64,000 nt of DNA, taken from Oerskovia merdavium. Its GTDB lineage: Bacteria > Actinomycetota > Actinomycetes > Actinomycetales > Cellulomonadaceae. Position 1 is the stretch's first letter; every line of letters begins with the position of its first letter. Position numbers and translations under genes: made by a program. This document shows positions 30,539-33,159 of this stretch, piece by piece. The stretch is taken from contig NZ_JACSQF010000018.1 of NCBI RefSeq assembly GCF_014836755.1, positions 26,547 through 90,546 on the forward strand, given 5' to 3'. Under the pieces are notes generated by a model that was not told the DNA's origin, searched no databases, and was given only the letters and a program-made list of their open reading frames with translations.

Positions 30539-30597
30539 CCGAGTGCGGAGCAGGTGTCGTCGATGCGGCGCATCGACTTCACCTGCTCCGCACTCGG
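30539..30597. repeat. palindromic element D (GTGCGGAG family), bidirectional terminator
   Basis: An 18-bp outer stem starting CCGAGTGCGGAGCAGGTG and an 8-bp inner stem GTCGATGC/GCATCGAC, separated by a 2x2 internal loop and closed by a tiny loop. It lies between convergent genes. The outer core GAGTGCGGAG is shared with elements C and E. Confidence 0.88.
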
Positions 30598-30617
30598 CGG
30601 GAGGGTGGGGCGTGGCG

Positions 30618-32144
30618 TCAGCGCGCCCCGACCAGCTCCTCGTCGGCGGCCGAGGCCGCAGGCTCGTCGGACGCGTTCGCGGCGGCGGTCGGGGTGGCGG
30701 CCTCGTCGGCCGAGCCGCCCTCGTCGTCCGTGAACAGGTCCTCGACGTTCACGCCCTCGTACTGCTCGAGGTCGAGGATGCCCTCACGCTTGGCCACGAC
30801 GGTCGGCACGAGCACCTGGCCCGCGACGTTGACCGCGGTGCGGCCCATGTCGAGGATCGGGTCGATCGCGAGCAGCAGGCCCACGCCCGCGAGCGGCAGG
30901 CCCAGCGTCGACAGCGTGAGCGTGAGCATGACGATCGCGCCGGTCAGGCCCGCGGTCGCCGCGGAGCCCACGACGGACACGAACGCGATGAGCAGGTAGT
31001 CCGTGAAGGACAGGTCGATCCCGAAGAGCTGGGCGATGAAGATCGCGGAGATCGCCGGGTAGATCGAGGCGCAACCGTCCATCTTGGTGGTCGCGGCGAG
31101 CGGCACCGCGAACGACGCGTACTCGCGCGGGACACCGAGGTTCCGCTCGGTCACGCGCTGCGTCACGGGCAGCGTGCCGATCGAGGAGCGCGACACGAAC
31201 GCGAGCTGGATCGCGGGCCAGGCGCCCTTGAAGTAGCTCGTGATCCTCAGGCCGTTGGTCCGCAGGATCACGGGGTAGACGACGAACAGCACGAGCGCGA
31301 GGCCGATGTAGATCGCGGCGGCGAACGTCGCGAGCGGGGCCAGCAGGTCCCACCCGTACGTCGCGACCGCGTTGCCGATGAGGCCCAGCGTGCCGAGCGG
31401 CGCGAGGCGGATGATCCACCACAGGACGGTCTGGATGATCGCGAGCGCCGAGCGGTTGAACGCGAGGAACGGGTCGGCCTTCTTGCCGGACTTGAGCGCC
31501 GCGATGCCGATGATCAGCGAGATGACGACGATCTGGAGCACGTTGAACGAGATCGAGGTGCTCGCACCGCTCACGGCGCCCTCGACCTGCTCGATCTGCG
31601 TGCGTGCCCCGATGCCCAGGAAGTTGCTCGGGATGAAGCCGTTGAGGAAGTCGAGCCACGACCCCGAGCCGCCCGGCTCGCTGCCGTCGGCCGCCGAGAG
31701 CGTCGTGTTGGCCCCCGGCTTGAGCACGAGGCCCAGGCCGATGCCGATCACGACGGACACGAGCGCCGTGATGGCGAACCACAGGATCGTCTGGCCCGCG
31801 AGGCGCGCGGCGTTGGTGACGTTCCGCAGGTTCGCGATCGACGCGACGATCGCCGTGAAGACGAGCGGCGGGACGATCGCCTTGAGGAGCGTCACGAACG
31901 ACGAGCCGATCGTCGACAGGGTCGTCGTGAGCCAGTTCGGGACCTCGTCGGGGGTCCCGGCACCCGACGCGGGGCCCATCGACAGCGCGGCCCAGCCGAG
32001 CAGCACGCCCAGCACGAGCGCGACGAGGATCTGGACCGTGAAGGACGGCGCCTTCAGGCGGCGCTTGGGCGCGGGGGCACCGGTCGCGGACTTCTCCGGC
32101 GCGGCGGGGGCCACGGCCTGCGAGGAGGAAGAGGAGGAGGGCAC
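30618..32144 (-). CDS. dicarboxylate/amino acid:cation symporter (DAACS), probable cystine importer
   Basis: A 508-residue symporter with about eight membrane helices and the two re-entrant loops of the family. Conserved parts include FVSRSSIGTLPVTQRVTER, TTKMDGCASIYPAISAIFIA and ILDMGRTAVNVAGQ. The extended N-terminus (Ser/Ala/Pro, about 35 residues) and acidic C-terminal tail are unusual. Family members carry glutamate, C4-dicarboxylates, serine or L-cystine; the leader peptide ending Cys-Cys 263 bases upstream favours cystine here (inference). GTG start after AAGAAAG. Confidence 0.85.
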   Translation of the reverse strand: MPSSSSSSQAVAPAAPEKSATGAPAPKRRLKAPSFTVQILVALVLGVLLGWAALSMGPASGAGTPDEVPNWLTTTLSTIGSSFVTLLKAIVPPLVFTAIVASIANLRNVTNAARLAGQTILWFAITALVSVVIGIGLGLVLKPGANTTLSAADGSEPGGSGSWLDFLNGFIPSNFLGIGARTQIEQVEGAVSGASTSISFNVLQIVVISLIIGIAALKSGKKADPFLAFNRSALAIIQTVLWWIIRLAPLGTLGLIGNAVATYGWDLLAPLATFAAAIYIGLALVLFVVYPVILRTNGLRITSYFKGAWPAIQLAFVSRSSIGTLPVTQRVTERNLGVPREYASFAVPLAATTKMDGCASIYPAISAIFIAQLFGIDLSFTDYLLIAFVSVVGSAATAGLTGAIVMLTLTLSTLGLPLAGVGLLLAIDPILDMGRTAVNVAGQVLVPTVVAKREGILDLEQYEGVNVEDLFTDDEGGSADEAATPTAAANASDEPAASAADEELVGAR

Positions 32145-32406
32145 GGTTCTGCTTTCTTCGTCACGGGCGCGTGGGGCGCCCAGGGATCGCGAGCATCGCG
32201 AGAGGGAGGGAGTGCAGTCGTCCCGGCCCGGAGGAAGGAGGATCCCGACGTCGGGGTCGCGAGGACGCGGGCCCGTGCGGGTCGCGTGCCTCGTGCGCAG
32301 CACGACCGGGGCGGGTCCGTGCAGCACGGGCTCGCGGCGGGCACGCCGAGGTCAGGAGGGTGGGGAGGACTGCTGTGCGGGCCGTGGGGCCCAGCGGTTC
32401 AGTGGG

Positions 32407-32481
32407 TCAACAACAGAGCGCGCTGGCGACTCGTCGCAGATCGACGTCACGGCGCGCGGTGAAGTTCCACCGGTTCAGCAA
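32407..32481 (-). CDS. putative Cys-type leader peptide upstream of DAACS transporter
   Basis: A 24-codon reading frame with a TTG start, preceded by GGGAG at a spacing of 8 bases. It ends FTARRDVDLRRVASALCC. This matches the actinobacterial putative leader peptide pattern of a basic pair, H/D-V-D-L, R, V/A-S-A-L-C, found ahead of sulfur-metabolism genes. Both cysteines use TGT, rare in this genome, immediately before TGA. Ribosome stalling there when Cys-tRNA is short could change folding of the roughly 260-base region before the transporter. The exact start is uncertain because the frame stays open further upstream. Confidence 0.65.
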   Translation of the reverse strand: MLNRWNFTARRDVDLRRVASALCC

Positions 32482-33159
32482 GGATTCGACTCCCGTTCGG
32501 GCCGGTCCGAGGACCGGCGGTGCGGGCGATCGTCGCCCGCGGCTACCGATAGTAGCCGAGGAAGGAACGTCGTCGGACCGTCGGTGTATTCCCTGGGACG
32601 CGGCGGCGTCTTCGCAGTTCGCTCCACAGCTCATCTCACGGCAGGAGGGCCCGATCGCGCGAAGAAGACGGTTGGCATGCGCAGACTGGGCCGAGAGGCG
32701 CCGCACCATGAGGCGGCGTCCTGGAGGCGCGCAACGGTCCGATCACAGTCGCACCACGCGTGCGAGGCACCCACAGCCAGCACAAGCTGTGCACTGACGA
32801 GAGCCCCCTGACGCTGCCCTCGCCAAGGTGCGACCCGCCTCCGGACCTACCATCTCCAGCGTCTCAGACCCTGCTCAACACCGCACAAGAAGACACCTCA
32901 ACCGACGACACCTCCGACCGGCGCCCCGTCCCGGCCCCAATACACCTCATCCAGGGAACTCGAGTGCCGTGTCTCGTACACACGAACCGCCCTGGCATGA
33001 CGCACGACGCCCCCGTCTCCCTCCTGCGCGAGGTACTGCCGCGAACGACAAGGTCCTCCTCAGGAAGGACCCGTGGAACGCGCGCATGTCGTTCTTGTGG
33101 AGGTCCTGGCGCGGGCAGCCCCGCTCCTAGCGTTGGAGGACACCGACGAAGGAGCTCTC
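32482..33159. other. long intergenic region, no gene recognised
   Basis: About 680 bases between the leader peptide and the ABC transporter operon, less GC-rich than its surroundings and without actinobacterial codon periodicity. It must hold the promoters of both divergent units. A hairpin-capable GGCCGGTCCGAGGACCGG stretch lies near 32500-32518. No mobile-element remnant could be identified. Confidence 0.5.

Follow-up and report, generated by a model that had tools for sequence, protein, structure and literature searches.

A putative cysteine-sensing leader peptide precedes a likely cystine importer of the DAACS family in Oerskovia merdavium and in other Actinomycetes

Cysteine leader peptides have been predicted upstream of the cys operons and of cbs in Mycobacterium, Propionibacterium and Bifidobacterium, where no terminator was found and Rho was suggested (PMC1262725). 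In Mycobacterium smegmatis, cysteine leader sORFs are regulatory, according to the accounts of Canestrari 2020 given in PMC13236596 and PMC9094748. On the side of transport, YdjN/TcyP of Escherichia coli is a proven cystine importer (PMC4383340), and in Corynebacterium glutamicum cg2810, a symporter of the SDF family placed under the sulfur regulators McbR and CysR, was proposed as a cyst(e)ine carrier (PMC2580772), a comparison that applies at the level of the family. Here we describe a locus of Oerskovia merdavium in which a leader of this kind stands directly before a symporter gene. The window, that is, the whole stretch of DNA analysed, comprises 64,000 nucleotides, and all features described below lie on its minus strand.

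The symporter gene (30618..32144) starts with GTG, encodes 508 amino acids of the SDF/DAACS family (PF00375, E 7.7e-100) and is preceded by a conserved Shine-Dalgarno sequence, AGAAAG (32152..32157), 7 nt 5' of the GTG. Upstream of it, the leader frame (32407..32481) begins at a TTG (32481-32479) and runs through 24 sense codons, LLNRWNFTARRDVDLRRVASALCC, with the C-terminal end ...RRDVDLRRVASALCC, to a TGA that ends at 32407. Its Shine-Dalgarno sequence GGGAG (32490..32494), 8 nt 5' of the TTG, is invariant in the genus alignment. The preliminary description of this DNA had given the frame, its length and its GGGAG exactly as we find them, and the roughly 260 bases that it placed between leader and transporter amount to 262 nt from the leader stop to the GTG at 32144. 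The codon of the conserved cysteine, at core position +10, is a TGT (32413..32415) followed at once by a second TGT (32412-32410). A putative −10 element, TACTAT (32549..32554), was recognized by eye and by its conservation, as TACCAT in four same-genus genomes; a scan of the window region with the sigma-70 consensus returned no match. The transporter stop is closely followed by a long, near-perfect inverted repeat, GAGTGCGGAGCAGGTGTCGTCGATG...CACCTGCTCCGCACTC (about 30555-30612), which has similar counterparts in the corresponding position of other Oerskovia genomes and is possibly a terminator or a repeat element.

The leader is a member of a recognised family. Against the NCBIfam model NF042934 ("putative leader peptide") the peptide scores 31.8 bits (E 7.6e-8; curated cut-off 27), and the traits of the type, namely a short translatable frame, a ribosome-binding site and a cysteine near the stop, are present. 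When the host genome was searched in six frames the leader scored 29.6 bits and was the sole place above the cut-off, a level that no site reached in 14 control genomes.

Within the genus, the transporter occurs in six of seven genomes and the leader lies at the same place in exactly those six, while the genome that lacks the transporter gives no leader match either. Across the six aligned genomes the leader DNA differs at no more than two bases, both of them in a single genome. At the level of the host family, 26 of the 31 best leader loci examined, the one in the window counted, directly precede an orthologous transporter, orthology having been taken from tblastn matches at 72-100% identity; the other five are other leader variants before other genes. 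One of these five is a second, weaker leader of the host genome itself (contig C13, about 75310-75366, minus strand, ...RAVDLRLVAGCLCR), which falls below the NF042934 cut-off and precedes an NMT1/SsuA-like (sulfonate-binding) substrate-binding protein; hence a small regulon of cysteine leaders, with sulfonate uptake as a part of it, is probable in the host. Elsewhere in the family a leader (L027) also stands upstream of an SsuA-like substrate-binding protein, and another (L025) upstream of a weakly thioredoxin-like protein. In other genera, two leaders of the type MPLLLV.RVHVDLRRTASCLC (L021, L028) lie directly before a 2OG-Fe(II) oxygenase, an unexpected target for a leader; the protein at L021 shows DIOX_N, and the one at L028 looks similar.

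The association extends well beyond the family. Searches of 297 Actinomycetes genomes for the leader family, the transporter and all SDF genes located the leader family in 178 and the transporter in 83 (E<=1e-60), and the 700 nt preceding each of 81 orthologs and 60 further SDF/DAACS genes from the same genomes were scanned. An HMM built from host-family leaders only detected a sense-strand frame before 41 of the 81 orthologs and before none of the 60 paralogs (Fisher 4e-13, shared ancestry ignored). After retraining on ortholog leaders, a training set that includes some of the leaders later counted, the figures at a score of at least 10 bits were 66/81 and 0/60 (Fisher 6e-26, shared ancestry likewise ignored), and the opposite strand upstream of the orthologs gave 0/81; the zeros among paralogs and on the antisense strand guard against over-calling by the retrained model. 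Leader-positive orthologs come from ten families besides the host family. The link is thus class-wide and specific to one transporter clade, and the connection between this leader class and a DAACS symporter anticipated in the preliminary description, to be looked for upstream of orthologs, is real. Several Actinomycetes families have the orthologous transporter without the leader, and so do Alphaproteobacteria (Devosia, Agrobacterium, Rhizobium; L194, L222, L226, L240 and others), whose transporters are 63-70% identical; the latter suggest transfer without the control element. The existence of such orthologs, in several Actinomycetes families as in Devosia and Rhizobiaceae, implies that elsewhere the transporter works without a leader. 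Inspection by eye of the genes beside leaderless orthologs in Devosia, Agrobacterium, Arthrobacter and Leucobacter revealed no obvious sulfur function.

An alignment of 103 leaders has L(−6), R(−3), D(+1), L(+2), R(+4), S(+7) and C(+10) as conserved residues, whose codons for the most part differ at the third base. The leader is under selection at the level of the peptide: synonymous positions change and core residues hold, a coding-type pattern and not the noncoding-like one against which the preliminary description had cautioned. The codon of C(+10) is the exception to the variation of third positions, being TGT in 100 of 100 DAACS leaders and in 54 of 54 leaders of the host-family and class searches, a set that partly overlaps the former. 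By comparison, the cysteine at +3 is encoded by TGC in 39/41 and 17/17 of the respective sets, and the transporter genes, used as the baseline of codon usage, have TGT at only 20 of 215 cysteine codons (~9%), so that the earlier characterization of the terminal TGT codons as rare is borne out. As leaders were searched for at the protein level, the codon cannot have been selected by the search. The tRNA-Cys(GCA) decodes UGU by G-U wobble pairing, and the simplest reading of the invariant TGT is therefore a slower codon at the sensing position; a constraint at the RNA level could also lie behind it. This provides a testable rule: in every examined leader that has the key cysteine its codon is UGU, never the commoner UGC. 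A few leaders of Geodermatophilaceae are devoid of the conserved cysteine, and in two from Blastococcus (L195, L200) a TGA replaces its TGT, offering natural cases for the role of the codon.

Since the leader is found just ahead of one transporter across the Actinomycetes, it probably allows cells to perceive a lack of cysteine and to turn up the apparent cystine importer in response. We propose that the element is, probably, a cis-acting, cysteine-sensing leader peptide of the NF042934 class that controls a DAACS symporter, itself most likely a cystine importer. In the model, the leader would be translated by ribosomes and, when charged tRNA-Cys is scarce, a ribosome would halt on the conserved UGU, in most leaders a codon or two short of the stop. 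The pause would change the state of the C-rich, structured spacer so that the transporter is expressed, whereas with plentiful cysteine the leader would be completed, the ribosome would leave and expression would be cut off. We infer the pause, the direction of the effect, the favoured Rho step discussed below and the substrate.

The spacer between the leader stop and the transporter Shine-Dalgarno sequence (32158..32406) is C-rich and G-poor, with C 0.47 and G 0.28 in the window, and might serve as a rut site. In the 94 class-level cases with a callable, Shine-Dalgarno-preceded start, the stop-to-start distance ranges from 42 to 251 nt (median 109), and the mean composition is C 0.50 and G 0.25. 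C exceeds G in all 94 spacers, against 41/94 for sequence further upstream and 30/60 for the 5' regions of paralogs, neither of which shows the skew; the density of YC per nucleotide is 0.308, compared with 0.17-0.18 in the controls. The spacers also fold more stably than their dinucleotide shuffles (mean z −1.32; controls −0.29 and −0.38). All six Oerskovia genomes keep six helices, of which those downstream of the leader are in line with the earlier expectation of conserved hairpins there. Upstream of the leader lie two 5' hairpins, the first formed by GCGGGCGA/TCGCCCGC (32522..32540), with pairs kept 6/6 through one-sided changes, and the second by CCGGTCC/GGACCGG (32502..32517), also kept 6/6 and with one two-sided change, U-A/C-G. 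After the leader stop come the hairpin GGGCC/GGCCC (32379..32392), invariant in the six, and the invariant block B (GCAGTC.TCCC, 32363..32373), which is the 5' arm of a long-range helix whose 3' arm is block C (GGGA.GACTGC, 32214..32224). This helix, the longest of the six, joins the two blocks across a mostly variable loop and keeps its 10 pairs in 6/6 genomes, but being invariant it offers no covariation. The hairpin TCGCGA/TCGCGA (32187..32201) is invariant as well, and the last, GGGCGC/GCGCCC (32165..32181), just before the transporter Shine-Dalgarno sequence, is kept 6/6 with the second of the two two-sided changes, G-C/A-U. A scan of the region against Rfam identified no family, nothing credible being returned. 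In the spacer of one leader locus (L092) the leader end and the bases that follow it (GCCATCTGTCGGTGACCCCGCTCCGCGTCAC) are repeated in tandem.

How a paused ribosome could act on this spacer admits several answers. The one that we favour, tentatively and as yet unproven, with a chance somewhat below even, is Rho-dependent termination within the C-rich spacer, which a ribosome parked near the leader stop would block in the manner of tnaC. The excess of C over G in every spacer and the YC density of 0.31 against 0.17 in controls agree with the rut features listed in PMC12121999, and the same skew follows 23 of the 24 leaders of the class search. Moreover, 63 of the 94 leaders have one or two codons between the pause codon and the stop, and Rho was proposed for the mycobacterial cys leaders as early as 2005 (PMC1262725). 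These arguments are nevertheless ones of composition, which is not function; the spacer contains stable hairpins too, the skew continues into the start of the transporter coding sequence, and some spacers, of only 42-65 nt, are short for Rho loading.

Less probable, yet a real possibility, is a translational step in which the spacer hides the ribosome-binding site of the transporter until a ribosome paused on the leader exposes it, as in the polycysteine sORFs of M. smegmatis. The closest relatives studied so far are reported to use such control (Canestrari 2020, which PMC13236596 cites under the term translation attenuation), and both the excess folding of the spacer over shuffled sequence and the hairpin kept before the Shine-Dalgarno sequence, with its two-sided change, would suit it. 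However, masking the paused ribosome in computed folds of the 94 leaders lowered the cost of opening the ribosome-binding site by a mere 0.35 kcal/mol, which is indistinguishable from the result for shuffled spacers (p 0.82), and the Oerskovia consensus fold places the Shine-Dalgarno sequence largely outside stable helices.

A more speculative extension of the favoured Rho model, which we regard as rather doubtful, concerns the pause itself. The residues kept every three to four positions (L−6, R−3, V0/D+1, R+4, S+7 and C+10) might assist arrest as a nascent peptide and, together with the obligatory wobble-read UGU, set a pause that differs from a plain run of hungry codons. It would guard a Rho-loading spacer across the whole cysteine regulon of Actinomycetes, the cystine importer included.

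The nature of the transporter was considered independently of its leader. Its seventh transmembrane segment carries the signature TTKMDGCASIYPA (about 31091-31053). The form DGCA..YP occurs in 81 of 81 orthologs and in none of the 60 paralogs, which have the usual [DN]G[TSA] type. Of the E. coli carriers aligned, TcyP alone has the GCA..YP part, with an additional residue that GltP, DctA and SstT do not have and that the solved aspartate/glutamate carriers lack as well; the motif with its one-residue insertion is a signature proposed here and not an established criterion. Overall identity is 29% to E. coli TcyP and 32% to GltP. A tree of 43 proteins unites the leader-associated transporters in one clade (support 99/98), has TcyP as its neighbour (89/84) and groups most paralogs with GltP and DctA; the branch of TcyP is long and the tree program warns about the join, so that its placement is weak. 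The union of these transporters in a single clade and the TM7 signature that TcyP shares give good support to the prediction of a cyst(e)ine importer controlled by cysteine. The preliminary description had expected the leader to assign the substrate; the leader alone does not suffice, and it is the TM7 signature and the moderately supported position in the tree that lend independent support.

An alternative, that a genuine leader precedes a carrier of aspartate, glutamate or C4-dicarboxylates and that cysteine control serves another purpose, is unlikely. Aspartate/glutamate carriers are the closest among solved structures, the motif DMGRT is retained at the substrate site, and the gene is the only DAACS gene of the host genome at E<=1e-30, all of which such a reading would accommodate. 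It is opposed by a TM7 signature that resembles TcyP and none of the GltP/DctA-like paralogs, and by the fact that those paralogs never have the leader.

A classical transcription attenuator with alternative terminator and antiterminator hairpins is very improbable. Hairpins do lie between leader and gene, and in one family a GCATGCC..GGCATGC hairpin with a T run was noticed by eye, but the consensus scan of the window region found no terminator-like site between leader and gene and the Oerskovia spacer alignment contains no T run. Of the earlier proposal that stalling at cysteine codons tunes the importer through RNA folding, the RNA structure stands; the scan for an intrinsic terminator found none, the computed folds gave no signal of a general sequestration of the ribosome-binding site, and by its composition the spacer suggests Rho no less than folding. 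That the leader is a chance match is refuted by its presence at 66/81 orthologs against 0/60 paralogs: GC-rich DNA commonly holds short frames, several others among them in this region, but uniqueness in the genome, conservation in the genus and coding selection also contradict this reading, whose probability is practically nil.

If the proposed model holds, the cysteine leader regulon, so far tied to genes of assimilation and biosynthesis, would gain import, and a transporter clade of many actinobacterial families, which matched here only generic dicarboxylate/glutamate carrier models, would gain cyst(e)ine as its likely substrate together with a control signal. The literature searched makes no mention of a class-wide tie to one DAACS clade, of this substrate prediction or of the invariant TGT, which may still have been published.

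Compared with the systems described previously, the window leader shares with NF042934 (cis_reg_atten) the core R..VDL.R..S..C and a score above the curated cut-off, but the output of that model names no target, whereas the leaders described here have a specific DAACS clade as theirs. The mycobacterial polycysteine leader sORFs of the Ms5788A and Ms4527A families are likewise short, Cys-ended and placed before sulfur genes, and their profiles match the window leader weakly, at 23.2 and 19.4 bits, below the cut-off of 45; it differs from them in having only two cysteine codons, in being preceded by a Shine-Dalgarno sequence instead of being leaderless, and in its target gene. Work by Canestrari in 2020 reportedly attributes the action of the polycysteine leaders of M. 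smegmatis to sequestration of the ribosome-binding site. The cys leaders of PMC1262725 resemble the present one in the leader itself, the missing terminator and the suggested role of Rho, but they precede biosynthesis genes and not a symporter. As in E. coli tnaC, a ribosome paused at the leader end would govern Rho in the C-rich stretch that follows; tnaC, however, senses free tryptophan as an inducer, while a shortage of charged tRNA-Cys is proposed here. Finally, the window transporter belongs with the TcyP/YdjN cystine:cation symporters of E. coli and Bacillus subtilis to the SDF fold family and has in common with E. coli TcyP the TM7 GCA..YP with its extra residue and the RSS and DMGRTA motifs. 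At 29% identity the two fall in separate clades, and they would differ in their control, which has been proposed to operate via CysB for E. coli TcyP and would depend on a leader peptide in Oerskovia.
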